Origin: Cyanobacteriota bacterium
Lineage (GTDB): Bacteria; Cyanobacteriota; Cyanobacteriia; PCC-6307; Cyanobiaceae
Length of the DNA: 48,536 nt
Reading direction: 5' to 3'
Assembly: GCA_026389265.1 (NCBI GenBank)
Contig: JAPLIE010000099.1
Coordinates: 1 to 48,536, forward strand
The first letter of the stretch is position 1. The number at the start of each line of letters is the position of its first letter. A model generated the notes under the pieces. It had not been told where the DNA came from and did not search any database. It saw only the letters and a program-made list of their open reading frames with translations. Below, in pieces: positions 27,533 through 43,503 of this stretch. A program made the translations under genes and the position numbers.

Positions 27533-30226
27533 TCACTCCCCCACCGCATGCGTGCGGCCCCGGCGCGGATCCACCGCCCCAAGACTGCCGCTGCCCAACG
27601 GCGCCAGCACCTCGACGCTGTTGGCCGCCCCCATCGCCGCGCTGGGCTGGAGGCGATGGCCCCTCCCCTCCAGCAGCGAGCGGGTGTCGGGGGAGAAGCC
27701 CTCCTCCAGCAACAGCCGATCGGGCCAGAGCTGGCTGTGGATACGGGGCGCCGCCACGGCGGTGGCCAGGTTGGCGCCCCACACCATTCGCTGCAGCAGC
27801 ACCTGGGCCACGGTGGTGATGATGCGGCTGCCGCCCGGGCTCCCGGTAACTAGCCAGGGTGTGCCATCGGTGCGAAACACCAGGGTGGGAGCCATGGAGC
27901 TGAGCGGTCGCCGGCCGGGCTTGATCGCATTAGCCTCCCCCTGCACCAGTCCGAAGCTGTTGGGGAGGCCCGGGGCAGCGGTGAAGTCGTCCATCTCGTT
28001 GTTGAGCAAGAAGCCGGCGCCCGGCACGGTCACCCCGTTGCCGTAGGCGAAGTTGAGGGTGGTGGTGAGGGCCACCAGACCGCCGTGGCGGTCGGCCACG
28101 GAAAGATGGGTGGTGTTCACGCTTTCGCGCCGCGGCGGCGGCGGGGCAGCGATCGCCGCGGCCGGGCGATGACGGCGCGGGTCGATGCTCTGGCGCAGCT
28201 GATCGAGATAGGCGGGATCGAGCAGATCGGGCGGCGGGCTCGCCATGGAGGCCGGATCGCCGAGCCAGGTGTTGCGATCGCGGTAGGCGAGGTTCATCGC
28301 CTCGGTGAGCTGGTGCAGCGTGGCGGCACTTCCGGCGCCGCTGGCGGCCAGAGCGGCGGGATCGAGAAGCCCCAGCAGCTGCAGCAGGGTGAGGCCGCCG
28401 CCGGGGGGCGGCATCGAGAGCAACGGATGATTCGCAAAGCGGCCGGCCAAAGGACGCACCAGTTCGGCCCGGTAGGCAGAGAGGTCGGAGCTACGGATCA
28501 GACCGCCCCGCTGGTGCATCAGGTTCACCAGGGCGGCGGCCACCGGCCCCCGATAGAAGCCGGCCTCCCCCTGGCGGGCGATGCCGCGGAGGGTGGCGGC
28601 GAGCTGCGGCTGGCGGAGGGTTTCACCGGGCTGAAGCCCCCGCAGAGCGATCAGCGCTGAACCTGGGCCGCGGGGCTGCGGGGTTGCCATCGCCATCGCT
28701 GAAGAAGGAGTTCCAGTGGCGGCAGGGGGAGCCGTTGCTCGATCAAGACCGGCGGCGCTGGGAGATCTCGGGGAACGCACAGGAGCGCCAACAGCGACCG
28801 AAGCTGATGGCATCGCGGGGCGGAGCGGGGCATCAGCCCCGCTGGACACTTGTGGTGCTGGAGATCGGAATCGGTCAAAGATTTCAGCCGCCCCAAGGCT
28901 CGCGGCCGGCCCGATGCCCCGCCCCTGAGGCCTCAGATAAAGCGCCCGCGAGGTGGGATCGGCCGCCAGCAGGGGCAGGGCGGCCGTGAGCGAATCGGCC
29001 AGTTCCCGATCCACCGGCACGCCCCGCTCGGCCAGGGCGATGGCCGGTGCCATCACCACCTGCAGCGGTAGGCGGCCATAGCAGCGCTGGGCGAGCAGCA
29101 GACCCGCCACGCTGCCGGGCACCGCCGTGCTCTGCAGGCTGCGGGTGGCCCGCTGCCGGTCGACGCTGCCATCGCCGCGTAGGAACAGGTCGGCCCGGGC
29201 GGCGGCGGGCGCGGTCTCGCGGAAGTTCACGGCCACGGCGAAGCCTTGGCCGAGCCGGAGTTCGGGGCCGTCGCTCGCGCGCAGGTCTTCCCTGGGAAGT
29301 GGGAGGACTCCGGGCCCGGCCAAGGCTGAGCTTCCAGCAGCGGGCACCCCCTGAACGGATGACGGCGGCTCTCGGAGGAAGCGTGTCGGCGAGGCCAGCA
29401 GGGCCGATCCGGTGATGGGTGTGAAGCCCCACGGGCCTCCGCCTGGCCGGCGGTCAGGAGCGGAGTGCGGAGCGCCTTGGAACAACAGGCCGGCAGCGGG
29501 CTGGACGTGACCTCCAGCGGGAAGAGTGGGGTTGGTTGGTGGTTCTACGGAAACCCTTTCATTCACCGGTGTCGCCGATTGAGCCCGAATCGCCCCCAGA
29601 CAGCCCCGGGCGCGGGCCCGCGACTCGCCCGGCAGCCACAGCACAAGGAAGCCCCCACCCCCCAGATTGCCGGCCTGGGGCAGGGTCACCGCCAGGGCGA
29701 AGGCCGTGGCCACGGCCCCATCCACCGCATTGCCGCCCTGACGCAGGATCGCCGCCCCAGCCGCTGAAGCCCGCCCCTCCTGGCTGGCCACCATCCCTCG
29801 CGCCGACCAGAGCGGCTGGAAGCGCTGGCCGGCCTCCTGGAGTTCGTTTGAAACTGGTGCAGGGGTCGGAGCGGCGGGTCGGCTGGCGGCCGTGGACAAG
29901 GAGCTGACAGCGAAGGTCCTTGGGGGCTCTGGCCGGGTCGTTCCAGCGCCAGAAGCACCATCACGGTGGCCAGGCCGCGCCAACGCAGAGCGAGCCAACC
30001 AGGAGCCTGAATCCTGGCGAGGGACGGGGAGCGTCCAGGGGAGCGATGCGTTGAAGGGGGCCAACGGCCTAAGCAGCGCCGCATGCGGCGACAGGAGTGA
30101 AAGCGGTGACAGCGAAACAGGTTGAAGCGGTGCGGCGTGAAGCGGGGCGGCGACCAGAGGAGCGGCCATCAACTGGAGGCCCGCCAGCCGCACCGGCACC
30201 CGGGAGGAGGAACGGAATCGGCTCAA
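27533..30226 (-). CDS. ggt: gamma-glutamyltransferase with low-complexity insertions
   Basis: The ~897-residue protein is far longer than the ~580 usual for the family. An Arg-rich start and hydrophobic APL-repeat segment act as signal peptide, then the GGT large-subunit segments (GMVASQEG; GGNAVDGAVATAFALAVTLPQAGNLGGGGF), STAVPGSVAGLL, the autoprocessing/nucleophile site ESVNTTHLSVAD with Thr705, GAGFLLNNEMDDF and TGSPGGSRIITTVAQVLL. It should cleave gamma-glutamyl bonds of glutathione and peptides in the periplasm. Two Pro/Ser/Ala/Gly-rich insertions (about residues 205-335 and 475-540) split the large subunit. The TTG start overlaps the upstream TGA (TTGA at 30223-30226); GTG or ATG (30169) starts further in are possible. 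It is paired with a 5-oxoprolinase. Confidence 0.85.
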   Translation of the reverse strand: MSRFRSSSRVPVRLAGLQLMAAPLVAAPLHAAPLQPVSLSPLSLLSPHAALLRPLAPFNASLPWTLPVPRQDSGSWLARSALARPGHRDGASGAGTTRPEPPRTFAVSSLSTAASRPAAPTPAPVSNELQEAGQRFQPLWSARGMVASQEGRASAAGAAILRQGGNAVDGAVATAFALAVTLPQAGNLGGGGFLVLWLPGESRARARGCLGAIRAQSATPVNERVSVEPPTNPTLPAGGHVQPAAGLLFQGAPHSAPDRRPGGGPWGFTPITGSALLASPTRFLREPPSSVQGVPAAGSSALAGPGVLPLPREDLRASDGPELRLGQGFAVAVNFRETAPAAARADLFLRGDGSVDRQRATRSLQSTAVPGSVAGLLLAQRCYGRLPLQVVMAPAIALAERGVPVDRELADSLTAALPLLAADPTSRALYLRPQGRGIGPAASLGAAEIFDRFRSPAPQVSSGADAPLRPAMPSASVAVGAPVRSPRSPSAAGLDRATAPPAATGTPSSAMAMATPQPRGPGSALIALRGLQPGETLRQPQLAATLRGIARQGEAGFYRGPVAAALVNLMHQRGGLIRSSDLSAYRAELVRPLAGRFANHPLLSMPPPGGGLTLLQLLGLLDPAALAASGAGSAATLHQLTEAMNLAYRDRNTWLGDPASMASPPPDLLDPAYLDQLRQSIDPRRHRPAAAIAAPPPPRRESVNTTHLSVADRHGGLVALTTTLNFAYGNGVTVPGAGFLLNNEMDDFTAAPGLPNSFGLVQGEANAIKPGRRPLSSMAPTLVFRTDGTPWLVTGSPGGSRIITTVAQVLLQRMVWGANLATAVAAPRIHSQLWPDRLLLEEGFSPDTRSLLEGRGHRLQPSAAMGAANSVEVLAPLGSGSLGAVDPRRGRTHAVGE

Positions 30227-33200
30227 GGCTGCGCTCCTGCTTCCGGCGAGGCTGACCGCCGGACAGCGGCGATCGTGATGGGCTCGGATCCGCTGCTCAT
30301 CCGCTCCACGCCCTGCTCCCCATCGACGGCGGACTCGGCGGGCGAGGGTTCCACCCCCCAGCCCCCGCCGCCGGGGGTCTCCAACACAAAGAGATCACCC
30401 GGCTCCATCGCCACCTGGGCCGAGCCCGCCAGCTCCTCGCAGCCGCCATCGGCCCGCAGCAACGCATTGCGGCCGCAGCGGCCCTCGCCGCCGCCAGCCA
30501 GAGCGAAGGGCGCCACCCGCCGCGAGCCCGAGAGGATCGCCAGGGTGATCGGCTCCAGCGCTCGCAACATCCGCACCACCCCATCACCCCCTCGCCAGCG
30601 CCCGATCCCACCGCTGCCGCGTCGCCGGGCGAAGCACTCCAGCCGCACCGGAAAGCGGGCCTCGAGGATCTCCGGATCGGTGAGGCGCGAATTGGTCATG
30701 TGGCTCTGCACGGCCTCACAGCCGGCGAAACCGGAGCCATCGGGCAGCACACCGGCTCCACTGCCGCCGGCCACGGTTTCGTAGTACTGGCAGCGGTCAT
30801 TGCCGAAACTGAGGTTGTTCATCGTGCCCTGGCCCGCCGCCAGCACCCCAAGGGCGCCGAACAGGGCATTGGCCACCGCCTGCGAGGTCTCCACATTGCC
30901 GCCCACCACCGCCGCGGGGAAGGTGGGATGCAGCAAACAACCGGGCGGCACCACCAGCTCGACCGGCTCGAAGCAGCCGGCATTGAGCGGGATCGGCTTC
31001 GCCACCAACACCCGGAAGACGTAGAGCACCACCGCCTTGGTGATCGCCAGCGGGGCGTTGAGGTTGCCGCCCTGCTGGGGGGAGGTGCCGCTGAAATCCA
31101 CCCGCACCCGCCTCTGCCTGTGGTCGGGGGCGACCGCCACCACGATGCGCGAGCCGTCATCGAGTTCCACGGCATGGCGACCGGGCCGGAGCCGATCGAT
31201 CACCGACCGCACCGCCTCGGCGGCATTGCGTTGCACGTGCCCCATGAAGGCCACCACCTCCGCCACGCCCCGCTGCTCGATCAGGCGATGGAGCTCGGCC
31301 TCGCCAAGCCGGTTGGCGGCCACCTGGGCCTGCAAATCGGCCAGCAAACGCTCGGGATCGCGCACCGGATGGGGGCCGGCGGCCAGCCGCTCCAGCCACG
31401 CCCCGCGATCGAAGCAACCGTCTTGAATCAGGGGCACGTTGTCGAGCCGCAGGCCCTCCTCGAGGATCGAGCAGCTGAAGGGCGGCATCGAACCGGGCGT
31501 GATGCCGCCCACATCGGCGTGGTGCCCCCGGCAGGCGACATAAAAAAGGGGGGTTGAAGCGGCCTGCAGCGCGAACACCGGCGAGATCACGGTGATGTCC
31601 GGCAGGTGGGTGCCGCCGGCGTAGGGATCATTGGAGGCGATGGCATCGCCGGGCCGCAGCGGGGGCCGCTCCCCCCGGGAGATCGCCGCCAGCAGGGCCG
31701 CCACGCTCTCCCCCATCGAGCCCAGGTGCACCGGGATGTGGGGCGCATTGGCCACCAGCTGGCCGGCCCCATCGAAGAGGGCGCAGGAGAAATCGAGCCG
31801 CTCGCGGATGTTCACCGAACGGCTGCTCTGCTGCAGCCGCACCCCCATCTGCTCGGCAATGGCCGAGAAACGGTGGTTGTAGAGCTCCAGTTGCACCGGA
31901 TCGGGCGGGGTGGGGAGGTCCGGCGGGTCGGACTGGCTATCCCCCTGGGCATTGGCTGGCGTCGATGCCTGAACCGCACCTCTCTCGTGGCTCCTCGTGA
32001 GCGCACCAGGGGCGACGGGCTCCAGCAGCAGCGCCCCATCGGGCAGCACCTGGGCTCCCCAACCAGGCTCCAGCAGGGTGGTGCCCGTGGCCTCGAGCAC
32101 CACGGCGGGCCCCAGCAGCCGCTGGCCCGCTAGCAGCTCTTCACGCCTCCAGCAGGGCACCTGGCACCAAGCCAGATCGCCAGCCGAGCCCTGGCCACCA
32201 TCGACTCCCGGGAGGCAGATGGGCACCCAGCGGGAGGGCAGAGCTGCCTGGGTCTCAACCTCCCCTCGGGCTGGGTTATTCGGGGTCGAGGCTCCGCTTG
32301 CACTGGTCCGCTCCTCCGCACCCGAGCGCTGCTGACACGGCGTTGATGCTCCCCCCGAACCGGGTCCCTGCGGTCCTTCACCGCCAGCCGGCAGCAACAC
32401 CCGCAGCCGCTCCACCACCAACGCCTCACCCTCCACCACGAAGCCGAAGCGCTGGCGATGGCGCGTTTCGAAGGCGGTGCGTAGATCGACGGTGGAGTCC
32501 GCATCGGCCCAGGGCACCTCCAGGCCCCGCTCCCCGCCCGCGGGCCGCAGCTCCAGGCTGATCCGCGCTGCGGAGGGATCGCCCGGAAGGTCTCCAGCCT
32601 CGCGGTGGGCTTGGTTGGCCTCGGCCAGCAGGCCATCGCGACGCCTGCACAGCTCGCTCAGCAGGGCCGGCTCCAGAACCCGCTGCACCACCTCGTTGCG
32701 CAGCGCCTCTTGCCGCGAAAGCCCGAGTCCATACGCCGAGAGCACCCCGGCCAGGGGATGGAGCAACACCCGTCTCACGCCGAGCCGCTCGGCCAATGCG
32801 CAGGCGTGCTGGCCGCCGGCGCCGCCGTAGCTCACCATCACGGCGGCGCGAATATCGTGGCCGCGCTGGATCGAGATGCGCCGAATCGCCTCTGCCATCC
32901 GCTCAATAGCGATGCTGCGGGCGCCATGGGCAAGGGCCTCCGGGGTGAGAACCGATGGCGAATCCATGGCGGCCGCCGCAGTCGCCGCCAATGGACCAGC
33001 AGACCGCTGAACCAGCTCGGCGGCCAGAGCCTCGAAGCCGCGCCGCACAATCGCGGCGTCGGGGGGTTGATCGCCACCGGGCCCGAATACCGGCGGTAAG
33101 GACCCCTCCGGCAGACGCCCCAGCAGCAGGTTCGCGTCGGTGATGGTGAGCGGCCCGCCACGGCGATAGCAGGCCGGTCCAGGAACCGCTCCGGCCGACT

Positions 33201-34380
33201 CGGGCCCCACCTGCAACCGACCGTCCTCCAGCCGCACCACCGATCCCCCACCGGCCGCCACCGTGTGGATCGGCAGGGTGGGGGCCTGCAGGCGCAGCCC
33301 GGCCACGGCGGTTTCAGGGCTGAGCTCGATGCCAGCGCCCGCCTCCAGATGGAACACATCGGTGGAGGTTCCGCCCATGTCGAAACCGAGGATCGGCCGC
33401 CCGGCAAAGCCGGTGGCGTGGGCCACCGCCACGGCGCCCCCTAGGCCCCCGGCGGGCCCTGAAAGCACCGTGTCCTTGGCGAGCAGCTGATCGGGGGGCT
33501 GGAGCACTCCGGCGGAGGTCATCACCCGCAGCCTCGTCCTGGGCCCAAGGGCCTGCCGCAGCTGGGCGAGGTAGGCCTGCAGCACCGGCCGCACGGCCGC
33601 CTCCACCAGAGTGGTGTGCAGGCGAGGCAGAAGCCGCGGCAGGCCGCCCACCCGGTGGGAAAGCAGCACGGGAGCGAAGCCCAATTCCTCGAGCCAGGCC
33701 CCCACCACCAGCTCATGGGAGGGGTTGGCCACGGCGTGAAGCAGGGCCACGGCGCAGCTGCGCAGCCCCTCGGCCCGGGCCTGTCGCAACTGGAGCTCCA
33801 ACGCGGGATCGCGGTGGAAGGGTTCCACTTCGCCCCCATCGGCGGCCAGGCGGCCCGGCACCTCCAGCACCCGGTAGGGGAGCAGGGGGGGGCGCTCCAC
33901 CCGCAAGGCGAAAATGTCGGGGCGGTGCTGCTCGCCGATGGCGGCCACATCGGCAAAACCCCGGTTCACCAGCAGCAGCACCGGCTCCACCCGACGCTCC
34001 AACAGGGCATTGGTGGCCACGGTGGTGCCGAGCCGCACCTCCGCCACCAGACCTTCGGGAAGGGGCTGCCCCGCCGCCAGGCCGAGCACCTCGCGGATGG
34101 CGGCCACGGCGGGGTCGATGGGTTGGGCGGGATCGCGGAGATCACCTGAATCGCGGCAGGGCTCCTCTCCAGGGAGAGCAGGCCCCTCGGCAGGGGGAGC
34201 GGCCCGTGCCGACCGCCCACGCTCTGAGAGCACCTTGCGCACCACCAAGGCGCCATCCGGGGCCAGGCCGACCAGGTCGGTGAAGGTGCCGCCCCGGTCG
34301 ATCCAGAACCGCCAGGCCCCAGGGCCACCCTCCGAGCCCGATGACGCCATGGCGGTGGCGAGCGATGTGGGGGCGATCAT
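30223..34380 (-). CDS. 5-oxoprolinase-type fused hydantoinase A/B protein
   Basis: The 1385-residue protein joins the HyuA half (WRFWIDRGGTFTDLVGLAPDG at ~23; ILGFDMGGTSTDVFHLEAG mid; YGGAGGQHACALAERLGVRR) to the HyuB half (from ~825: LELYNHRFSAIAEQMGVRLQ, HIPVHLGSMGESV, RPGDAIASNDPYAGGTHLPD, FVLETPGGGGWG). This order is that of ATP-dependent 5-oxoprolinase, which opens pyroglutamate to glutamate. Pro/Ser/Gly-rich insertions near residues ~55-80, ~660-720 and ~795-820 add to the usual ~1290 residues. The ATG at 34380 is 9 bp after the GNAT stop; an ATG at 34350 also exists. The adjacency to GGT points to glutathione or gamma-glutamyl peptide recycling. Confidence 0.85.
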   Translation of the reverse strand: MIAPTSLATAMASSGSEGGPGAWRFWIDRGGTFTDLVGLAPDGALVVRKVLSERGRSARAAPPAEGPALPGEEPCRDSGDLRDPAQPIDPAVAAIREVLGLAAGQPLPEGLVAEVRLGTTVATNALLERRVEPVLLLVNRGFADVAAIGEQHRPDIFALRVERPPLLPYRVLEVPGRLAADGGEVEPFHRDPALELQLRQARAEGLRSCAVALLHAVANPSHELVVGAWLEELGFAPVLLSHRVGGLPRLLPRLHTTLVEAAVRPVLQAYLAQLRQALGPRTRLRVMTSAGVLQPPDQLLAKDTVLSGPAGGLGGAVAVAHATGFAGRPILGFDMGGTSTDVFHLEAGAGIELSPETAVAGLRLQAPTLPIHTVAAGGGSVVRLEDGRLQVGPESAGAVPGPACYRRGGPLTITDANLLLGRLPEGSLPPVFGPGGDQPPDAAIVRRGFEALAAELVQRSAGPLAATAAAAMDSPSVLTPEALAHGARSIAIERMAEAIRRISIQRGHDIRAAVMVSYGGAGGQHACALAERLGVRRVLLHPLAGVLSAYGLGLSRQEALRNEVVQRVLEPALLSELCRRRDGLLAEANQAHREAGDLPGDPSAARISLELRPAGGERGLEVPWADADSTVDLRTAFETRHRQRFGFVVEGEALVVERLRVLLPAGGEGPQGPGSGGASTPCQQRSGAEERTSASGASTPNNPARGEVETQAALPSRWVPICLPGVDGGQGSAGDLAWCQVPCWRREELLAGQRLLGPAVVLEATGTTLLEPGWGAQVLPDGALLLEPVAPGALTRSHERGAVQASTPANAQGDSQSDPPDLPTPPDPVQLELYNHRFSAIAEQMGVRLQQSSRSVNIRERLDFSCALFDGAGQLVANAPHIPVHLGSMGESVAALLAAISRGERPPLRPGDAIASNDPYAGGTHLPDITVISPVFALQAASTPLFYVACRGHHADVGGITPGSMPPFSCSILEEGLRLDNVPLIQDGCFDRGAWLERLAAGPHPVRDPERLLADLQAQVAANRLGEAELHRLIEQRGVAEVVAFMGHVQRNAAEAVRSVIDRLRPGRHAVELDDGSRIVVAVAPDHRQRRVRVDFSGTSPQQGGNLNAPLAITKAVVLYVFRVLVAKPIPLNAGCFEPVELVVPPGCLLHPTFPAAVVGGNVETSQAVANALFGALGVLAAGQGTMNNLSFGNDRCQYYETVAGGSGAGVLPDGSGFAGCEAVQSHMTNSRLTDPEILEARFPVRLECFARRRGSGGIGRWRGGDGVVRMLRALEPITLAILSGSRRVAPFALAGGGEGRCGRNALLRADGGCEELAGSAQVAMEPGDLFVLETPGGGGWGVEPSPAESAVDGEQGVERMSSGSEPITIAAVRRSASPEAGAQP

Positions 34381-34389
34381 CGCGCAGGC

Positions 34390-35334
34390 TCACCCACTCA
34401 GGCTCCGCCCCATCAGCACGTAACGGCGGAAGGAGCGGGCGTAGGGCCGGCTCAGGGCCACCGAGGCACCCGGTTCGTGCATCAAGGCATGGATCACGGC
34501 CGTGTACCCCAGCGCCGCAGCCCGCCCATGGCAGGTTTCCAGCAACCGGCGCCCCAGGCCGGCCCAGCGCCGTCCAGGCTGCACCACCAGCGTCCTCACC
34601 ACGGCCCGGCGACCCTCCTGGGGCCCCTCGGGATGGGCCAGCAGCAGACCCACCACCTCCCCGCCATCGAAGGCCAGGAGGCTGAGGCGTGGATCAAGCC
34701 GGCTGCGCCAAGGCTCCCAGTGACGGCAGAAACCATCGAGGCTGACGGGCACAAACAACGGTTGCCGTCGGAAGCCGTTCAGAATCAAACGGTGGATCGG
34801 CTCCAGCAGGTCGTCGATCGCCAAGTGCTCCACAGGTACCAGCTGGAACGGCGAGGGCGGGTAGACGGTGAGGCGACGCCTCTGAAGATCGTTACACAGC
34901 GAGGAGACATAGCGGGCCCGGATGGCGAAGCCGGCCGCCGCCAGCCAGTCGGTCCAGCGGGGATCCGGATCCGGTTCGCCGGCGAAGGCTTCGGCGGAAT
35001 CCTGGCCCGGCTCCAACACGCGATAGGGATGCCAGGTGTCGCCATCCAGGGGAGCGAGCACGGTGGCGCAACCCCGCTGGCGAAGCTCGGCGGTGGCCCG
35101 CTCCAGCAGCTCGGCGGCGCTGCCCGGCCCACTGGCCTCCAGGCGGCCGATGCGGCCTAGCGGAACAGTCCCGCTGGGAGCCGGCGACCTCCGATCGTGT
35201 GCCAGCGGATCACCACCCGCCAGCGCCTGCGGGTTCGGGGCCTCATCAGCCATCGACGGGCTCCACCACAGCCCGCAGCGCGCCCAGCCCCCGGCCCCAT
35301 CACCCAGCTCCAGCACCCGATCGGGCTCAGCCAT
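34390..35334 (-). CDS. GNAT-like N-acyltransferase
   Basis: The protein has 314 residues. An N-terminal half holds a degenerate GNAT-like segment (ELLERATAELRQRGCATVLAPLDGDTWHPYRVL), and a C-terminal GNAT domain has VRTLVVQPGRRWAGLGRRLLETC, matching the acetyl-CoA-binding R/Q-x-x-G-x-G/A loop, followed by MHEPGASVALSRPYARSFRRYVLM. It likely transfers an acyl group to an amine; the substrate is unknown. The ATG at 35334 overlaps the DUF3419 stop by 8 nt. A later ATG after a Trp-rich stretch is also possible. It is the last gene of the radical SAM/UbiA/DUF3419 set. Confidence 0.7.
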   Translation of the reverse strand: MAEPDRVLELGDGAGGWARCGLWWSPSMADEAPNPQALAGGDPLAHDRRSPAPSGTVPLGRIGRLEASGPGSAAELLERATAELRQRGCATVLAPLDGDTWHPYRVLEPGQDSAEAFAGEPDPDPRWTDWLAAAGFAIRARYVSSLCNDLQRRRLTVYPPSPFQLVPVEHLAIDDLLEPIHRLILNGFRRQPLFVPVSLDGFCRHWEPWRSRLDPRLSLLAFDGGEVVGLLLAHPEGPQEGRRAVVRTLVVQPGRRWAGLGRRLLETCHGRAAALGYTAVIHALMHEPGASVALSRPYARSFRRYVLMGRSLSG

Positions 35335-36499
35335 GACGCAGCGGAGCAGATGCGGAAGGCACCGGACCGGGAGCTGGCGCGCCCACGGACGCCACGGGCA
35401 GGGCCTCCGCCACCACCAGCCGCCGGTAGAAGGGCACCTGATCCCGGTGGTGAAGAGCCGCAGCCAAGCCATCGAGGGCCCGCCAGCGCCCCGCTGTCGC
35501 CAGGCTGGTGTCACGCTCCGCCAGCCGATTCCAGAGCACCAGTCGGGCCCCCGGGGTCGCCCGCCGATGGAGCCGATCCAGCAGCCTCCCCGCCACCTGA
35601 GCCTCGACGTACTCGAGCACATTGCTGAGGTTGCAACCATCGATCCGGGTGTCGTTGTCGCCGCCGTCCTGGCCGGGCTCGTGCGTGTCAAGCCACTCCT
35701 CCAGTGAGAGGAGCCGCCAGCTGAGCTGATCGAGGCGGGAGCGGATCACCGAAAAACTCTCCGGCCGCAGGGCCAGGGGCAGGACGTCGCCGTAGCGCCC
35801 GAGCAGGATCCAGTGCAGGTAGGGATTGCGGAGCGGATCGGCCGCCACCATCACCCGCCGCACCTGGGCGAGCAGCTGCTCCGCCTGGGAGTCGTGGCCA
35901 TAGCGCACGAAGCTCGGATCGGTGCCGAGGGTGCCGAGGGAAGCGCGACTGAAGAACAGCCGGAACAGCAGCCGCCAGCGCCCGCCATCCCAGCTCGTGT
36001 CGTACCAGCGCTGGCGCTCGGCGGGGTTGCGGGGCAACAGCAACTCGGAGCGGCGGCGCGCCCCATGCACGAGGGGCAGCACCAGGCGACGGAACAGGGC
36101 CAGATAGCGCTCGAAGCGGGCCACCGGCAGCACGCCCCAAGCCAGCCAGGCCGGATCGGACTCCCAGAAAGCGCGGGCGGAAGGGGAAAGGTCGCTCCGG
36201 CAGCGGGTGTAGCAATCCTGGCGCCGCGCCGCCGGGCCCGCCTGGGCGCCCAGCAACACCAGCATCTCCGGGTGGCTGAGCCGGCGGAAGGCCGCCACCT
36301 TGAGCTCCAGAGCGGCGATCTGGGGCGGACTGCGATCGATCGCGATCACCCGCACCCCCGGCCGCAGCAGCAGGGCGAGGCTGTTCTCGCCGCCGGAGGC
36401 GATCGAGAGCAGCGTGGAGCCCGGCCGGGGATCCAGACCCGCCAGCAAGACGTCGGCATCCTCCCAGCACTGGCCGTAGCGTATTCGCCGTTCGTTCAC
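35327..36499 (-). CDS. DUF3419 (BtaA-like) aminocarboxypropyl transferase family protein
   Basis: From the GTG at 36499 this is a 390-residue protein with RIRYGQCWEDADVLLAGLDP, LLSIASGGENSLALLL (SAM-binding Gly loop) and VIAIDRSPPQIAALELKVAAFR, and later IDGCNLSNVLEYV and RLVLWNRLAE. These match DUF3419/BtaA-like proteins; BtaA moves the 3-amino-3-carboxypropyl group from SAM onto diacylglycerol in betaine-lipid synthesis. The GTG overlaps a TGA in the upstream gene's repaired frame (GTGA at 36496-36499), which supports it over an ATG at 36538. No membrane helix is obvious. Its neighbours (UbiA-like, PPDK-like) suggest it acts on a lipid other than the ordinary betaine lipid; no BtaB methyltransferase is nearby. 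Confidence 0.8.
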   Translation of the reverse strand: MNERRIRYGQCWEDADVLLAGLDPRPGSTLLSIASGGENSLALLLRPGVRVIAIDRSPPQIAALELKVAAFRRLSHPEMLVLLGAQAGPAARRQDCYTRCRSDLSPSARAFWESDPAWLAWGVLPVARFERYLALFRRLVLPLVHGARRRSELLLPRNPAERQRWYDTSWDGGRWRLLFRLFFSRASLGTLGTDPSFVRYGHDSQAEQLLAQVRRVMVAADPLRNPYLHWILLGRYGDVLPLALRPESFSVIRSRLDQLSWRLLSLEEWLDTHEPGQDGGDNDTRIDGCNLSNVLEYVEAQVAGRLLDRLHRRATPGARLVLWNRLAERDTSLATAGRWRALDGLAAALHHRDQVPFYRRLVVAEALPVASVGAPAPGPVPSASAPLRHG

Positions 36500-39400
36500 G
36501 ACAACCCCGGCCGCCGAGAGCGAGCGACTCGGCCCCATCCGAGGGGGCACCCGAGGAGATCGAGGCACTCGCGGTTTCCGCTCCGTGCGGCGCGGCGGCC
36601 AGGCAGCGCACCGCACCGCTGCGGCCATCCATCTCAACCCAGTCTCCCTCGGCCAGGCCGGCGGTGATGCCCCCCAGATCCGTAACCATCGGCAGCCCGA
36701 GTTCGCGCGCCACGATCGCCACGTGAGAAAGCACGCTGCCCCGTTCCACCAGCAGGCCGGCGGCATGGGGGAAGAGCAGCACCCAGCCGGGATCGGTGGA
36801 GGCGGCCACCAGGATCGGTCTATCGCTGCCACGCTGCCGCGGCGTATCAAGCCAGCGGCGGGGATCCGCCACCAACGACACGCGGGCCCGCACCAGGCCG
36901 GGCGCGCAGCCTGTCCCCTGCCAGTCCTGCGCAGGGGAGGCAGCGGGATCCGCCATGCCCTCGCCGGTCTCCGCAGGCGGCTCCGGGGCAGCCAACAGGG
37001 CGGCGGTGGCCAGGGCCGGCAGACCACGGGTCTCCAGGCGGCGCGGCAGGGGGCGCTGCTGCCGCTGGCGCTGCCAGGCCGTCCGGCGCACGTCCACCAG
37101 ACCCCGCAGATCGGCGCCACTGCCGTTGCCCTCCACCACGCCCAGCACCTCCTCCACCTCCAGGAACACCACGTCCTCCGGCTGATCGAGCAGCCCCACC
37201 CCGGCCAGGCGCCTGCCCAGTTCGAGCAGGAGGCGCCGCGCTAGGCCGAAGACGCGGGTGCGCTCAAAGCGCAGGTTCTCGCGGTTGCTCACCAGCGCCC
37301 GGGTCCGGCGCTGCAGCCAGCGCAGCAGCAGTCGCCGCAGCGGCTGGCCGGGAAGCTCGGGCCCCGCTGAGCCCGCCGGGGGCCACGGGAGCCGTTCAGG
37401 CTCCGCAGGTCTACCGGGGGGAGGGGAGGGGTGCTGCAACCGCTCCGCCATCGCGCCGATCGAGCGCAGCAGGGGCAAAGGATCCTCCCGCAGGGTGAGG
37501 GTCTCGAGCTTGAGCTCCTCAAGGCAGCGATCGCCGAAGTCGTCGAGGTAGCGCTCCAGCTCCACCTGCAGCACCGGACAGGACGCCACGGCCCTCCGCA
37601 AGGTGGACGGCTCACCCCGCTGCAGGGTGTCCACGAGATCGGGCCGCTGCTCCAGCAGGGCGGCCATGGCGCGGATGCGGCGGGGCGGTTCGGCGCTGAT
37701 CACGCTGGCGTCGCCGGCGATCCAGTCGTGGAGGGAGCCGGCTTGGGCGGGGCACCAGCGCTGGGAAAGGCCCCGCAGCAGCCCGTAGACGATCATCGCG
37801 TAAAAGTCGTTGATCAGCGGCGCATCCCAGTGGTTGAGCAGCTCCGCCTCGATGCGGCGGTAGTGGTGCACCAGCTCATCGGGGCGCGCATCGGCGAGGG
37901 CGGCCAGCTGGGAGGGGTTGAGCAGCACCCGGTTGAGCCGCCGGCGGAAGGCACGGCTGCGACTGCCAAGGCTGAGGGCATTGGCCACCAGCCCGGCCAG
38001 GGAGCGCCCCAGGTGCAGAGCCTCCAGCCAGCGGGGCGCCGGATCCGCCGCCGCCTCGCGGCGCTGCTGCCGCCGGATCTGCTCCATCCGCTCCTCGGGC
38101 AGCCCGTGCTTCACCCCGAGCATCTGCTCGAGGAAGCGGGAATTGAGCCGGTAGCCCGGCAGCAGCGCCAGCACCCGATACCAGTTGAGCAGGTTGTAGT
38201 AGATGCGGCCCTCCAGGAAGCCGATCATCCCGCCGAAGACCGCCCGGTTGCGGCGGATCGTGGCCTCCGGCACGCCCATGAAGCGGCAGAACTGGGCGTA
38301 CACCTCGCTGTAGGCCTTGCGAGCGAAGAAGAAGGTGAGGGGCGTGGTCACACCGCCATAGCTCTCCACGATGTTGCTGTTGTCCCACAGGGCCAGGCGC
38401 CCATCGGGATCGTCGAGGCCCCGCAGGGTGGTGATCGGCCGCGACTGCAACACCCACAGCCCGCCGCCCTCCAGCAGGGCCCACTCCACGTCCTGGGGCA
38501 CGCCGAAGTGGTGGCCGAGCTGGCGGACCAGGCTGGCGATCCGCCGTGCCTCCGCCTCCGGCAGGGATGGGGTGGAAAGGCGGGGCGCCTGAACCGGGTT
38601 CGTCGCTGCAACGGTTCCAGCAACCGAAGCCGAAGTGAGAGATGTAGCCGAAACCGGAGCAACAACGGAAGTAGCAACGCCTGTGGCAGCCGGCACCGGA
38701 ACGAACGCCGAAGCGGCAGCGTTCACGGGCGCGGAGACTTGGAAACCTGAATCCGAAGGGGAGACTGCAGGCTCTGGACGAGGAGAAGCAGAGCCTGGGG
38801 CGTGCTCCAGTAACGCTCCCTCCCGATCGAACAGCCAGGCTTCCCCCTCCAGCTCACCGGCCACCAGGGCGGCGGCCACCCCCGGCACGGCCTGCACCAA
38901 GGTCACGCCGCGGCGGCCACTCACCGGATCGGCCGAAAAGGCCACCCCGGCGAATCGTGGGGAGAGCATCGGCTGGATTAGCACCGCGGGAGCCAACCCA
39001 CCGCCATCGGCTCCATCCGACTCGGGTAGACCCCGCTCCCGCCGGTAGGTGGCCAAGCCCGACCCGAAGGCCGAATGCCACACGGTCACGATCGCCGCCT
39101 CCAGCTCCGCCAGGGGCACCTCCAGCTGAGTGGCGAACTGGCCGGCGTAGCTGGCCGCAGCGCCATCCTCGGAGCGTCCGGAGGAGCGCACCGCCCAGCG
39201 CCCTGCCCTCCAGCCGGCACCGCCGGAACCAGCGAGCGCCTGAGCGGCCAAACCCTCCAGAACGCCAAGCGCCCCCACCAGCTCCCGCCCCACCGCCGGA
39301 TCCAGCCGCTGCGGCAGCTCCGCCGGCCCTGGCCGGGACCGTTCAAAGGCCGAGGGAAGCAGCACCAGGGAGGGCAGCACGGGAAAACCGGCCTGGGCCA

Positions 39401-39515
39401 GCCGCAGCAGGGTGGCGGCCTTGCCCCCCAGCTCCGGCAGTCGCTCCGGATCGACCGGCTCCCCCTCCATTAACCACACGGCATGGAGCAGGGAGGGCAG
39501 GGGCGCCAGCGTCAT
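36496..39515 (-). CDS. PPDK/rifampin-phosphotransferase-like enzyme, frameshift at 3' end
   Basis: The ~1006-residue protein has an ATP-grasp domain (LGGKAATLLRLAQAGFPV; WAVRSSGRSEDGAAASYAGQ), a second ATP-grasp part ending DVEWALLEGGGLWVLQSRPI, a helical middle with NRENLRFERTRVFGLARRLL, and a swivelling phosphohistidine domain RGSVLSHVAIVARELGLPMV with His931. It lacks the PEP-binding TIM barrel, so it resembles rifampin phosphotransferase more than PEP synthase; it may phosphorylate an unknown acceptor. A Pro/Ala/Val/Ser-rich insertion occupies residues ~238-312. As printed, the frame fails to stop and runs ~800 nt into the next gene; one extra C in CCCC (36505-36508) would give a TGA at 36496-36498 overlapping the DUF3419 GTG. 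The ATG at 39515 overlaps the UbiA-like stop (ATGA). Confidence 0.8.
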
Positions 39516-40558
39516 CTGAGCCCCCCCAGCAGGGCCGGCAACCAGCCCAGCGAGAGATAGGTGGCAAGGGTCCAAAGCGCGGTGGGCAGCTCCAAAGGTT
39601 CTGGCCGTGACGACTGGGCCCTGGCGGCGGCCTTGATGGCCTCGCCGGCAGCCCCTGTGGCCTCGCTGGCGATCACAGCAGCCCCATTGGCCATCTCCGC
39701 GGGTCTTTGAATAATCAAGGGAGATCTCCGCCCGGCCCGCCCGACCGGCCGGAACCGCAGCACGATCCAGGCCAGCGAGGGAGCCAACAGCAGCAGCACC
39801 AGCGGCACAGCACGGATCTGCTGCGCGGCCACCAGGGAAAGCGGCAGGGAGAGCAGCAGCACCACCAGCCAGCGCCCCTGGGCCGGCCCCAGGCCCCAGA
39901 GGGCGCTCCAGGTTTCCACCCCCGGCTCCTCCTGGTCGGGGAAACGGATCTTGCGGGCGAATTCGATCGCCAGGCCGTTGAGATAGCAGAGCGCCAAGAG
40001 GGGGAGCAGGGCGGCTCCGGGCAGGGTGCCACCGCCCGGCAGCACCGCCATCGCCAGGGCGAGCAGGGCGATCAGGGGCACGATCACCATGTGGCTGAAC
40101 GTATAAAGCAGGGGCCGGGCCCGCAACCAGGCCGGCACCAGGAACTCCACCCCCATCAGGGCGAACCAGCCCCAGGTGAGCACCAGCAGCCACCAGGCAT
40201 CCGGCGCGACGCGCCACACCAGCAGCCCCTGCAGCACAGCCGTGGCCAGGGCCACCAGGGCCAGCTCCTGCAGGCTCACCAGGCCCCGCGGCACCGGCCG
40301 GTAGGGGCGGCAACGCTGATCGTCATGGCGATCCTTGAACTCATCGGCGATCCGCATCAGCAGGAAGAAGGCGCCGCTGCAGAGAATGGCGCTCAACAGC
40401 ACCGGCAAGGAAGGGGAGCCCCCCACCAGCCGGGCGCCGTAGAGGGCCGCCGCACCGCAGAACACCGTGATCAGGGGGCCATGGCGCCGCAGCGGAAAGC
40501 GCTCGGCCTGGTAGATCCACAGCCGCCGCGGCAGGGGCAGGTGCGCTTCAGCCAGCAT
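39512..40558 (-). CDS. UbiA-like prenyltransferase
   Basis: This 348-residue membrane protein has about eight helices and two Asp-rich motifs of the UbiA superfamily: RIADEFKDRHDDQRCRPYRP in the first loop and FARKIRFPDQEEPGVETWSA in the second. It should attach an isoprenoid chain to an acceptor at the membrane. The charge pattern after the first Asp motif (YRPVPRGLVSLQEL) is typical. A loop of ~50 residues (around 39610-39720, Ala/Glu-rich, with GCAGCCCC repeated 30 bp apart) precedes the last helix. Overlaps with both neighbours (11 nt upstream, 4 nt downstream) tie it to the cluster. The acceptor and chain length are not predictable. Confidence 0.8.
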   Translation of the reverse strand: MLAEAHLPLPRRLWIYQAERFPLRRHGPLITVFCGAAALYGARLVGGSPSLPVLLSAILCSGAFFLLMRIADEFKDRHDDQRCRPYRPVPRGLVSLQELALVALATAVLQGLLVWRVAPDAWWLLVLTWGWFALMGVEFLVPAWLRARPLLYTFSHMVIVPLIALLALAMAVLPGGGTLPGAALLPLLALCYLNGLAIEFARKIRFPDQEEPGVETWSALWGLGPAQGRWLVVLLLSLPLSLVAAQQIRAVPLVLLLLAPSLAWIVLRFRPVGRAGRRSPLIIQRPAEMANGAAVIASEATGAAGEAIKAAARAQSSRPEPLELPTALWTLATYLSLGWLPALLGGLR

Positions 40559-41063
40559 CGGAGGCCCTCCCGGAGTTCGCGACCGGTGCGGCGGTCAGCA
40601 GGGCGCGGGCCTCCTCCAGGGCAGCCGTCGCCTGGACCTCACTCCAGCCACTCCAGAGCAGATCACGGCGGACGCCCTCCTCGCTCGCCCCCTGGCTCAA
40701 CTTGCCACTCGCGTACTTCACCAGCAGATGCGACACCGACTTCTCGCCCCCGGGCCCAGAAAGCTCCACGCGGGATGGCGCTGCACCTGGGGCGGTTCCC
40801 ACTCCGGGCTTGACCCGCAGGGAGGGCACCAGCACCTGCAGCAAGGCCCCGAACAGCATGGCCACCCCCGCCCAGAAGAAGCCGCCAATGCCGAGGGTGC
40901 AGATCGTCGAAATGATGATCATCTGCAGGGCGTCGGCGAAGGAGCCGCACATCACGGTCAGCAGCACCAGCATCGGCAGCACGCCGATCAGCAACGACCG
41001 CATCGAGAAGCGCGCATCGAGCCCGAAGAATGATCGGGAGCCGGTGGGAGGAGGAGAGTTCAT
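40548..41063 (-). CDS. small membrane protein with C-terminal helical domain
   Basis: No named family was recognised for this 171-residue protein. It has two hydrophobic helices (LLIGVLPMLVLLTVMCGSF and MIIISTICTLGIGGFFWAGV ... GALLQVL), a Pro/Gly/Ala-rich link, then a small helical domain (KYASGKLSQGASEEGVRRDL, LLWSGWSEVQATAALEEA) similar to short UBA-like helices seen in other bacterial membrane proteins. The ATG at 41063 is preferred to the GTG one codon earlier. It overlaps the UbiA-like gene by 11 nt, so it is probably a partner or assembly protein of that enzyme. Confidence 0.65.
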   Translation of the reverse strand: MNSPPPTGSRSFFGLDARFSMRSLLIGVLPMLVLLTVMCGSFADALQMIIISTICTLGIGGFFWAGVAMLFGALLQVLVPSLRVKPGVGTAPGAAPSRVELSGPGGEKSVSHLLVKYASGKLSQGASEEGVRRDLLWSGWSEVQATAALEEARALLTAAPVANSGRASDAG

Positions 41064-41188
41064 CACGGCAGAAAACCTGGATGCAGAGCGGGAGGGAGCG
41101 ACGAATCAGAGAAGAGTTCAGAAACACAGTCAGTGACGGATTCGCAGAGTCATGCCGACGCGTTCAGCGAGGGTGTCAAAGCTGGCGG

Positions 41189-42250
41189 TCAGAGCCGGTT
41201 GTCGAGCACGATCTCCCAGTAGCGAATCGTGGCCAGCACCAGCGCCATGTAGCAGGGAATGGCGAAGGCAATCTCAATCGGCGCCTGCAGCAGCGGGATC
41301 GTGAAGCCCGAGAAATTGGCCACGGCACTGGGGCCGTACACCCGCAGACCGGCGGCATAGAGGCCGTATTCGATCGGTAGGGCGATGGCGGTGGCCACCA
41401 GCACGGCCATCACCATGCGGAAGGCCACAGGCTGGAGCAGGAAGAACCGGTTCACCGCCAGGGCGGTGAGGGCGATCACCAGCACCCACGCCCCCGTCAT
41501 CACCAGGTTGATGTCGCGGTAGAGGGTGCCCCAGGCGGGGAAGCCACGGTTGAGCACCATCGGCTCCACCATCAGCTCAAACAGGAGCACCGCCAGGGTG
41601 GTGAGCAGCAGCCCCCGCCCCCAGCGGATCCGCCGCACCGGAATCAGCAGGGCGTCGTCGAGCACAAGGCTCCAGTAGCGGTAGAAGCCGATCACCAGGG
41701 CGGCGAACACAGGCACGTAGTAGACGATCGCTAGCGGTACGCCGTTCACGAAGCCCCCGATGGCGGCCTCCTGCACCTCGGGGGCATAGCTGCGGATCCC
41801 TGAGGCCACCAGCACGGTTTCCAGCGGCACCGTGATGGCGGTGATCAGCGCCAGGATCAGCAGAAAGCGCGGCAGGGCCCGCCAGCGGGGCAGCAGGCGG
41901 TCCACCAGCTCCACCACCACCAGGAAGAGCACCGTCCAGCCGAGGGTGAGCACCCAGCTCACATCGCGATAGAGATAAGCCCAGCGGCCGAGGTGGGCGT
42001 TGTTCCACATCGGCGCCGTGAACAATTCGAAGAACACCACCCCCAGGGCCATTAGGGCGAAGCGGGCCGGCAGGCGATCCCGCATCCGGCTGAGCCAGGC
42101 CAGGGCCGCCACCACCAGCACCAGACCCACCAGCAGCACCCGCAGCGAAGCCGGCGTGAGGGTCTTGTCCACGCCGCAGCTGCCGCTGAGCAAAGGATTG
42201 AAGGGGATCGCGGCCATGGGAGGCCCAAAACCCAGAAGCATCCCGCTCAT
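41189..42250 (-). CDS. internally duplicated polytopic membrane protein
   Basis: This 353-residue protein has about ten helices and no family that I can name with confidence. Its two halves repeat: FFELFTAPMWNNAHLGRWAY plus LYRDVSWVLTLGW in the first matches LFELMVEPMVLNRGFPAWGT plus LYRDINLVMTGAW in the second, and each half ends with a YRYWSLVLDD / IRYWEIVLDN segment. The repeated Glu, Pro-Met, Leu-Tyr-Arg-Asp and Tyr-Trp residues may line a shared active site or channel. The ATG at 42250 overlaps the radical SAM stop (ATGA at 42247-42250). The pattern recalls small carotenoid-cyclase-like membrane repeats, but I do not assign it. Confidence 0.7.
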   Translation of the reverse strand: MSGMLLGFGPPMAAIPFNPLLSGSCGVDKTLTPASLRVLLVGLVLVVAALAWLSRMRDRLPARFALMALGVVFFELFTAPMWNNAHLGRWAYLYRDVSWVLTLGWTVLFLVVVELVDRLLPRWRALPRFLLILALITAITVPLETVLVASGIRSYAPEVQEAAIGGFVNGVPLAIVYYVPVFAALVIGFYRYWSLVLDDALLIPVRRIRWGRGLLLTTLAVLLFELMVEPMVLNRGFPAWGTLYRDINLVMTGAWVLVIALTALAVNRFFLLQPVAFRMVMAVLVATAIALPIEYGLYAAGLRVYGPSAVANFSGFTIPLLQAPIEIAFAIPCYMALVLATIRYWEIVLDNRL

Positions 42251-43503
42251 CGCGCACCTCCCGGGCTGAGCGGAGCGGCGGCCGGACCCGGCGGCGCACC
42301 TTGATTCACAAGGGCCGGCACCGGTCGGGCGCGGCCGGTCACCACGGTGGGCAGCTCCCGGCTGGCGGCATCCTTCACCTTGCAGCCGCCCCATTTGGCC
42401 TGGCGGAAATCGGGGTCAGTGCTGAGCCGCTCCCAGGCCTTCCAGAGCGGTTCCTGGAGCACGTTGCCGAAGATGGCGTGGTTGAAATCGCACGACATCA
42501 GATCGCCGTAGGGCGAGAGGTAGAGGTAGCTGGTGCCGCAGCTGCAGCCCACGCTGCGGTGGCTGCTGATGTAGGCCGAGAACACCACGCCGGGGTAGCG
42601 GGGATCGTGGTTCCAGCGGTCCGCCGAGGTGATCATCCGCTCCACCCAGGCGCCGTTATCCACCAGATCCTCACGGTGCTCGAGCCGACCGGTCGGCAGG
42701 GCGTCGAACACCAGCAGTTCATGGGCGCCCACCCGCCGGGCCAGCTCCACCATCCGCTCCAGTTCACCAGCAGCGAAGCTCTCCGGCGTGAGCGTGGCGG
42801 AGATGCCCACCGAAAGGCCCTGCCGCCGCGCCACCGCCAGACCAGCCAGGGCCCGCCCGAACAGACCCGGCGTACCGCGCAGATCGTCGTGCCGTTCGGC
42901 ATCGGCGGCATCGAGGCTCACGTACACGCTGTCGAGGCCGGCGCGGCGCAGGCCGAACGCCCGATTGGCCAGGTGCCAGCCATTGGTGAACAACACCACG
43001 GTTGAGAGGCTTTTATCCACCGAGGCCACGATCGCCTCCAGCTCGGGATGGAGCAGGGGCTCGCCACCCACCAGGTTCACAATCGACACCCCCAGGGCCT
43101 GGGCGTCGCGGATCACCCCGGCCCACTCGCTGCTGGTGAGCACGTGGCGACCCGGGGATTCCACCCCCTCGAAGAAGCTGCAGTGGCCGCATCGGGCGTT
43201 GCAGCCGTCATTCACCGCCACGCTCATCAGGTTGGGGATGTTGCTGTTCTGGACGGCGCGGTAGAGGGTGCGGGCGATGAAGTGGGCCGCCGGCGGACTG
43301 AAGAGGGCCGGGGTGGAGAGGGAATACACGGGATAGCCATCGCGGTGATGGATCACCTTGTTGTGGTTGAGGTAGATGCGGTAGAGCACATCCACGAAGT
43401 CGGTGCCGTAGCCGAGCGCCCGGGCCACCAGGAAGGTCTGGAGGCGTAGACGACGACCAGCCGCCAAACCCCTGCGCAGGAGGCTTCGAACCACGATCCG
43501 CAC
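42247..43503 (-). CDS. radical SAM/SPASM-type enzyme heading a membrane-pathway cluster
   Basis: This 418-residue protein has an N-terminal basic helical part (~90 residues), the radical SAM cluster motif DGCNARCGHCSF (C101, C105, C108), the GGEP motif (VNLVGGEPLLHPEL), a SAM-binding VSLDAADAERHD segment and a C-terminal Cys-containing stretch (VGCSCGTSYLYLSPYGDLMS followed by CDF) like a short SPASM/twitch region. It uses SAM and a 4Fe-4S cluster for a radical reaction; the substrate is unknown, and no peptide precursor gene is adjacent. The start is GTG at 43503. It is first in the co-directional set that continues through the UbiA-like and DUF3419 genes. The last ~30 residues are Pro/Ala-rich. 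Confidence 0.85.
   Translation of the reverse strand: MRIVVRSLLRRGLAAGRRLRLQTFLVARALGYGTDFVDVLYRIYLNHNKVIHHRDGYPVYSLSTPALFSPPAAHFIARTLYRAVQNSNIPNLMSVAVNDGCNARCGHCSFFEGVESPGRHVLTSSEWAGVIRDAQALGVSIVNLVGGEPLLHPELEAIVASVDKSLSTVVLFTNGWHLANRAFGLRRAGLDSVYVSLDAADAERHDDLRGTPGLFGRALAGLAVARRQGLSVGISATLTPESFAAGELERMVELARRVGAHELLVFDALPTGRLEHREDLVDNGAWVERMITSADRWNHDPRYPGVVFSAYISSHRSVGCSCGTSYLYLSPYGDLMSCDFNHAIFGNVLQEPLWKAWERLSTDPDFRQAKWGGCKVKDAASRELPTVVTGRARPVPALVNQGAPPGPAAAPLSPGGAR

Follow-up and report, generated by a model that had tools for sequence, protein, structure and literature searches.

What does a cyanobacterium make with a radical SAM protein, a prenyltransferase, a phosphohistidine enzyme and a BtaA-like transferase that are all encoded in a row? 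This question is raised by a stretch of 48,536 nucleotides (hereafter the window) from a Cyanobacteriota bacterium of the family Cyanobiaceae (assembly GCA_026389265.1, contig JAPLIE010000099.1), in which a block of seven minus-strand genes fills positions 34390-43503. In the direction of transcription, the block encodes a radical SAM protein, a membrane protein (B), a small protein (C), a UbiA-superfamily prenyltransferase, a PPDK-like enzyme, a DUF3419 (BtaA-like) transferase dependent on S-adenosylmethionine (SAM) and a GNAT acyltransferase (Table 1). An earlier note on this DNA had suggested that these genes could make a modified membrane lipid or prenylated metabolite bearing a head group of the amino-acid type. 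We find that the seven genes are one inherited unit, which occurs in rearranged forms across several bacterial groups. With somewhat less than even confidence, we favour the reading that the block is the radical SAM/B form of a wider prenyl-lipid pathway, whose product would carry a SAM-derived aminocarboxypropyl head group that is N-acylated by the GNAT enzyme.

The seven genes form one inherited unit

B is rare, being present in 2 of the 292 genomes in a sample of the window's phylum (its own genome counted), and within the genus it keeps company with UbiA: B was found in 3 of 42 genus genomes, and a UbiA profile finds exactly the same three. The oxoprolinase gene OPLAH next to the block (30223-34380) is present in 39 of the 42 genomes, and on this difference we ruled it out as a member of the pathway. 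The site itself was also compared between relatives. In the nearest one (G298), only 56 nt and no other gene separate the aligned yajQ and oxoprolinase genes, and their products match those of the window at 98% (YajQ, 163 residues) and 91% identity (oxoprolinase, 462 residues, nearly to the limit of the sequence covered). Relative to G298, the block, which sits between these two genes in the window, was thus gained or lost whole. Among 13 genus genomes, yajQ stands directly beside the oxoprolinase gene in G298, G270 and G320 and about 1.7 kb from it in G296, and the nine others gave no yajQ in the flanking stretch covered (7 kb in G293, mostly at most 1.5 kb in the rest). Since the genus as a whole does not share this neighbourhood, it is chiefly G298 that carries the site argument. 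Two further loci (L009 and L011) carry the block at the same place as the window, which favours loss of the block in the relatives. A plasmid search with B gave no match.

The arrangement goes beyond chance on three counts: distant genomes repeat the gene order, the genus genomes have either both B and UbiA or neither, and G298 has the site without the block. The earlier note had looked to conserved co-occurrence as the check on its idea, and on these same observations the idea survives.

Two forms of a wider gene cluster

A contig scan with B yielded 19 loci, of which 17 are cyanobacterial and two carry a Planctomycetota label; L010 and L028 duplicate the contigs of L008 and L009, and each contig is counted once. 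The window and G211 bring the total to 21 distinct B loci, several of which stop at contig edges. Radical SAM genes were found in 18 of these, always adjoining B, UbiA in 18, the PPDK-like gene in 17, DUF3419 and GNAT in 12 each, C (by blastp) in 15 and an AMP-ligase in four (L019, L020, L024 and L027). The DUF3419 gene was recovered in nine of ten carrier genomes searched (none in G336); it lies on a different contig from B in G334 (where the copy is in two pieces), G335, G339 and G340, and G332 gave a partial match only. Of the 11 B loci with both DUF3419 and GNAT, four encode them as one open reading frame (ORF) of 705, 672, 615 and 695 residues (L009, L013, L014 and L017, respectively, the third running to the contig end), which suggests that one step feeds the next, with an aminocarboxypropyl amine being made and then acylated.

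The core of UbiA, PPDK-like, DUF3419 and GNAT genes, often joined by an AMP-ligase, is found more widely, in Cyanobacteriota, in Planctomycetota and on an alphaproteobacterial (Roseinatronobacter) plasmid, where the order is HMG-CoA reductase, UbiA, PPDK-like, DUF3419, a kinase-like membrane protein, GNAT and AMP-ligase. DUF3419 is present in 25 of 292 genomes of the window's phylum. In a sample of 294 Planctomycetota genomes, the UbiA profile finds 21 at 1e-8, where hits with E values above about 1e-23 could belong to other UbiA proteins, and B is found only in the query's own genome. Compact arrangements recur: L078 and L080 carry in a row GNAT, AMP-ligase, HMG-CoA reductase, UbiA, PPDK, DUF3419 and the kinase-like gene, and L126 and L128 carry a six-gene set of UbiA, PPDK, DUF3419, kinase, GNAT and AMP-ligase, the genes of L126 overlapping by 11, 8, 17 and 4 nt.

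To compare the two forms, we used 24 loci without B, chosen as the 12 best of 29 UbiA matches (G331 itself left out), 11 of 15 DUF3419 loci and L047; the 15 were drawn from 27 matches, and the four of them not counted (L119, L125, L129 and L130) gave no UbiA, PPDK or GNAT matches beside DUF3419. Among the 24, L083 and L084 show UbiA and AMP-ligase only, and L088, a 4.1 kb contig, UbiA only. HMG-CoA reductase occurs in seven of them, the kinase-like gene in seven and either one in ten, and neither occurs in any of the 21 B loci (Fisher p 7e-4, a pointer only, since the test assumes independent loci, which these are not, and the two groups come from different queries). The radical SAM/B module and the HMG-CoA reductase/kinase-like module look like alternatives. 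The two cyanobacterial loci L129 and L130 hold another type of DUF3419, apart from the block, next to a gene that by eye is desaturase-like and one for a protein of 267-271 residues.

Enzymes of the shared core

The UbiA protein of the window passes the PF01040 cut-off (43.7 against 34.2 bits). UbiA prenyltransferases are defined by two Asp-rich motifs, and the first of these (D-x3-D-x3-D) is invariant in 19 aligned rows. At E <= 0.001 the UbiA profile matches a single PDB entry, digeranylgeranylglyceryl phosphate synthase (6m31, 3e-5), over about 90 residues in the region of the first Asp motif only. This likeness to an archaeal UbiA enzyme of ether-lipid synthesis is weak, however; the second motif differs, and no archaeal-lipid partner genes were recognised.

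Every one of the 21 aligned PPDK-like proteins keeps the ATP-grasp motif V-R-S-S...E-D, and 20 keep the Ser-His motif, L021 ending before it. PEP synthase proper carries a C-terminal PEP/pyruvate barrel domain. We rejected that identity, as the protein has ATP-grasp and phosphohistidine domains but no such barrel: no third Pfam domain was found in the window protein (36501-39515) or in that of L126, which closes with the His domain. With the ATP-grasp domain first and the phosphohistidine domain last, the layout is that of PigC/RedH and of rifampicin phosphotransferase (RPH), which we take PDB entry 5fbs, labelled PEP synthase, to be. The NF004881, RedH, PigC and RPH models all match below their cut-offs, however (RedH 204 against 1350 bits, PigC 173 against 1300), and the partner genes differ from those of PigC/RedH. 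Immediately upstream of radical SAM and B, L027 (1-2046) carries another PPDK-like gene that differs from the first; it also has SDR and alpha/beta-hydrolase genes beyond DUF3419.

In its AlphaFold2 (AF2) model (pLDDT 90.4), the DUF3419 protein adopts a class I SAM-dependent fold into which a large helical segment is inserted (1n2x, Z 13.1, root-mean-square deviation (rmsd) 2.6 over 162 residues); by sequence search there was no credible solved relative. In a 23-row tree, rooted at the midpoint and with a long Blastopirellula row, a branch supported at 100/100 parts 19 cluster DUF3419 proteins from four others, namely three rhizobial btaA-type proteins and the second Blastopirellula copy. As far as the available text of PMC3972451 goes, BtaA moves a 3-amino-3-carboxypropyl group from SAM to diacylglycerol. 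By analogy with the btaAB systems of Rhodobacter and Sinorhizobium, which share the DUF3419 SAM enzyme, a SAM-derived amino-acid head group is the likely chemistry here; in contrast to those systems, the cluster has a separate DUF3419 clade, partners in UbiA, PPDK-like, GNAT and AMP-ligase genes, and, by Pfam, no methyltransferase besides DUF3419 in the window block. A class I methyltransferase gene follows DUF3419 in Rhizobium (L092) and lies just downstream in S. meliloti (L091). One also stands after UbiA-PPDK-DUF3419 in L120 (7835-8776), where neither GNAT nor AMP-ligase was seen, and might methylate the amine in place of acylation. In a Spirulina metagenome-assembled genome that keeps B and C (L045, 8362-9464), the DUF3419 gene is in two frames. 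The GNAT protein carries a conserved N-terminal extension.

Proteins of the two modules

B has nine helices in its AF2 model (pLDDT 84.3), several P-x-E motifs and an internal duplication, the halves aligning at 99.8% probability with 32% identity. Such motifs are linked to CrtYcd-type lycopene cyclases. PF18916 (Lycopene_cyc) is matched by 3 of the 21 B members and not by the other 18, the window copy included; L018 and L019 (0.026) match over the same stretch, nearly the whole 92-position profile. From these two homologues' below-cut-off matches and the P-x-E motifs, B appears weakly lycopene-cyclase-like, differing from CrtYcd-type enzymes in being a duplicated nine-helix protein. A sequence search gave no solved relative of B, and no lycopene-cyclase sequences were found in 149 Planctomycetota genomes. 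Matches of the predicted structure to phenylalanine ammonia-lyase (Z 7.9) and an Insig homologue (Z 7.6, rmsd 3.5 over 135 residues) fall in the range of common arrangements. C is probably membrane-bound and has a conserved C-terminal motif (both judged by eye). The radical SAM protein gave below-cut-off NCBIfam matches only among the 25 matches listed, of the AhbD, MoaA and NirJ2 kind.

In the other module, scans of three loci bore out HMG-CoA reductase through PF00368 or TIGR00533. Two of five kinase-like proteins scanned match PF01148 below its cut-off of 24 bits (L126 20.5, L128 18.4), those of L047, L079 and L080 gave no match to it, and a sequence search gave no solved relative. The kinase-like profile finds a 232-residue ORF in the window's genome at 5e-13, which we take to be the cyanobacterial phytol-kinase-like (VTE5-like) protein. 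The partner resembles VTE5-like phytol/dolichol kinases through the two PF01148 matches, but has a longer C-terminal half and is absent from the 21 B loci. In L079 (4100-5416) this half weakly resembles DUF92 (E 0.077), the family of the second phytol kinase, and the protein is possibly a fused two-step kinase. HMG-CoA reductase and a prenol-kinase-like partner together suggest an isoprenoid chain for UbiA.

A proposed pathway and its alternatives

From these families and linkages we infer substrates, an order of steps and a product. The PPDK-like enzyme would activate or phosphorylate an acceptor with ATP via a phosphohistidine, UbiA would move an isoprenoid-type chain onto this acceptor at the membrane, the DUF3419 enzyme may add an aminocarboxypropyl group from SAM, as is described for BtaA, and the GNAT enzyme, supplied by an AMP-ligase, would acylate the new amine. 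In one form, the supply of the chain would be aided by HMG-CoA reductase and the kinase-like protein. In the other, the chain or the core would be reshaped by B together with the radical SAM enzyme, and the chain would come from the methylerythritol phosphate (MEP) pathway, since no match to HMG-CoA reductase turned up in the window's genome. An N-acylated, homoserine-ether-like prenyl lipid would result. The proposal of the earlier note fits the HMG-CoA reductase and kinase-like partners, the UbiA matched to an ether-lipid synthase and the DUF3419-GNAT ORFs, and is partly supported; the AMP-ligase, HMG-CoA reductase and kinase-like genes of the wider system and the weak lycopene-cyclase likeness of B were not visible to it. 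Its further remark of knowing no described pathway with this gene set agrees with the open-access literature (subscription journals and preprints fell outside this scope), where we found no description of DUF3419 with UbiA and radical SAM, of a DUF3419 gene cluster or of BtaA with UbiA, and nothing related on combined UbiA, HMG-CoA reductase, PEP synthase and AMP-binding proteins, as judged by title and start of abstract. The gene families are known, their combination is new as far as that literature goes, and we class the system as a variant of SAM-head-group lipid synthesis.

Several observations weigh against the proposed prenyl lipid. No AMP-ligase was found beyond GNAT in the window and six other B loci (the rest of these genomes was not searched), and L015, L016 and L022 have B without a radical SAM gene in the stretch covered. 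The window's genome is 95% complete and still lacks an HMG-CoA reductase match, and elsewhere the reductase might be there to provide mevalonate and not prenyl groups. The PF18916 similarity of B stays below the cut-off even at its best (L018, 8.7e-4, 20.3 against 27 bits), and fold comparison with the PDB gave no clear counterpart (best Foldseek E 0.52), with no lycopene cyclase among the matches listed. UbiA reads E-x2-R-K at the place of the second Asp motif, and NCBIfam chlorophyll synthase models match it weakly, at a strength similar to that of 6m31. The class I fold of DUF3419 suits methyl as well as aminocarboxypropyl transfer, the cluster proteins form a clade apart from rhizobial btaA, and the GNAT proteins of L047 and L126 fall below the Pfam cut-off.

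Instead of a membrane lipid, the same genes could make a specialised metabolite, with DUF3419 as a methyl- or aminocarboxypropyltransferase on a small core, UbiA prenylating it, the PPDK-like enzyme joining two halves as PigC and RedH do, and GNAT and AMP-ligase capping the product. The below-cut-off RedH and PigC matches, the patchy distribution of B in both phylum samples and the AMP-ligase as partner agree with this, but by Pfam there is no carrier protein, transporter or regulator among the seven window genes (B and C having no family), UbiA and B are membrane proteins and the one solved match of UbiA is a lipid enzyme; we regard this alternative as unlikely. More improbable is a role for mevalonate as the acyl unit, which would be made by HMG-CoA reductase, activated by the AMP-ligase and put on the SAM-derived amine by GNAT. 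This has a precedent in fungal siderophores, which use mevalonyl units through SidI, a mevalonyl-CoA ligase, and SidF, an anhydromevalonyl-CoA transferase (PMC3709128, in the text available), and the three genes do occur together in L047, L078, L080, L081, L118 and L121; however, AMP-ligase and GNAT also occur without HMG-CoA reductase in the stretch covered (e.g. L019, L020, L117, L126 and L128), and the window's genome has no match to the reductase.

A variant betaine-lipid pathway, in which DUF3419 makes a diacylglyceryl-homoserine that is later modified, would account for the DUF3419 membership and for the methyltransferase gene beside it in L120. It has to contend with a window block that lacks a methyltransferase gene, with the separate clade of the cluster DUF3419s and with UbiA and PPDK-like enzymes that do not figure in the BtaA/BtaB route given in the available text of PMC3972451, and we consider it highly improbable. 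Almost no credence is left for a chance or housekeeping neighbourhood without a joint pathway: the clusters are indeed split in L016, L018, L022 and L023, but the G298 site without the block, the co-occurrence and the conserved order contradict it.

Returning to the prenyl-lipid reading, it can be widened to an unrecognised lipid class, which we hold to be somewhat unlikely. Here, prenyl chains, or chains reshaped by radical SAM and cyclase-like enzymes, would be combined with an N-acyl aminocarboxypropyl head group by one modular pathway, and two interchangeable modules (HMG-CoA reductase with the prenol-kinase-like protein, or radical SAM with the lycopene-cyclase-like protein) would set the hydrophobic part, in oxygenic cyanobacteria, members of the phylum outside the window's class, planctomycetes and an alphaproteobacterium. 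If so, a membrane lipid class would have been overlooked in well-studied phyla; the gene set would name producers, such as Oscillatoria sp. PCC 10802 and Argonema antarcticum, with methionine as a label to find the lipid; and the DUF3419 subfamily, the UbiA subfamily with the altered second motif and the unnamed B family would gain testable functions.

Layout of the locus and neighbouring genes

The seven minus-strand genes were described in the earlier note as overlapping by 4-11 nt at most junctions, which is borne out at four of six: radical SAM/B (4 nt), C/UbiA (11 nt), UbiA/PPDK (4 nt) and DUF3419/GNAT (8 nt). The B/C junction is a 122-nt gap. At the PPDK/DUF3419 junction the window copy of PPDK has a divergent tail, its frame staying open for 812 nt across the DUF3419 gene (35688-36499). 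In L008, from the same genus, the PPDK gene reaches only 4 nt into DUF3419; for the window, both a late change of frame and an error of assembly are possible.

Table 1. Genes of the block, listed in the direction of transcription with positions in the window.
Feature	Position	Strand	Evidence
Radical SAM protein, SPASM/twitch-type C-terminal Cys region	42247..43503	-	Pfam Radical_SAM 3.1e-19, SPASM 2.6e-4
B, membrane protein	41189..42250	-	no Pfam match
C, small protein, accessory	40548..41066	-	no Pfam/NCBIfam family
UbiA-superfamily prenyltransferase, distinct subfamily	39512..40558	-	PF01040 2.7e-11
PPDK/PEP-synthase-like phosphohistidine enzyme, RPH/PigC/RedH layout	36501..39515 (frame open to 35688)	-	PPDK_N 5e-33, PEP-utilizers 6e-21
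DUF3419 (BtaA-like) SAM-dependent transferase, GTG start	35327..36499	-	PF11899 2.3e-49, above cut-off
GNAT acyltransferase	34390..35334	-	PF00583 1.8e-9

Upstream of the block in the planctomycete locus L024 (2-7665) are genes for a methyltransferase, a PlsC acyltransferase, an acyl-AMP ligase, a carrier-thioester reductase and a second radical SAM protein. For its acyl-AMP ligase, thioester reductase and PlsC we considered the ether-lipid elb operon of Myxococcus and set it aside, as the elb genes named in the available text of PMC9131029 include no UbiA, DUF3419 or PPDK. Downstream of the block in the window, OPLAH (oxoprolinase/hydantoinase, 30223-34380) overlaps by 4 nt with a gamma-glutamyltranspeptidase gene (27533-30226), a pair that likely serves glutathione breakdown and that in L008 is one long ORF.

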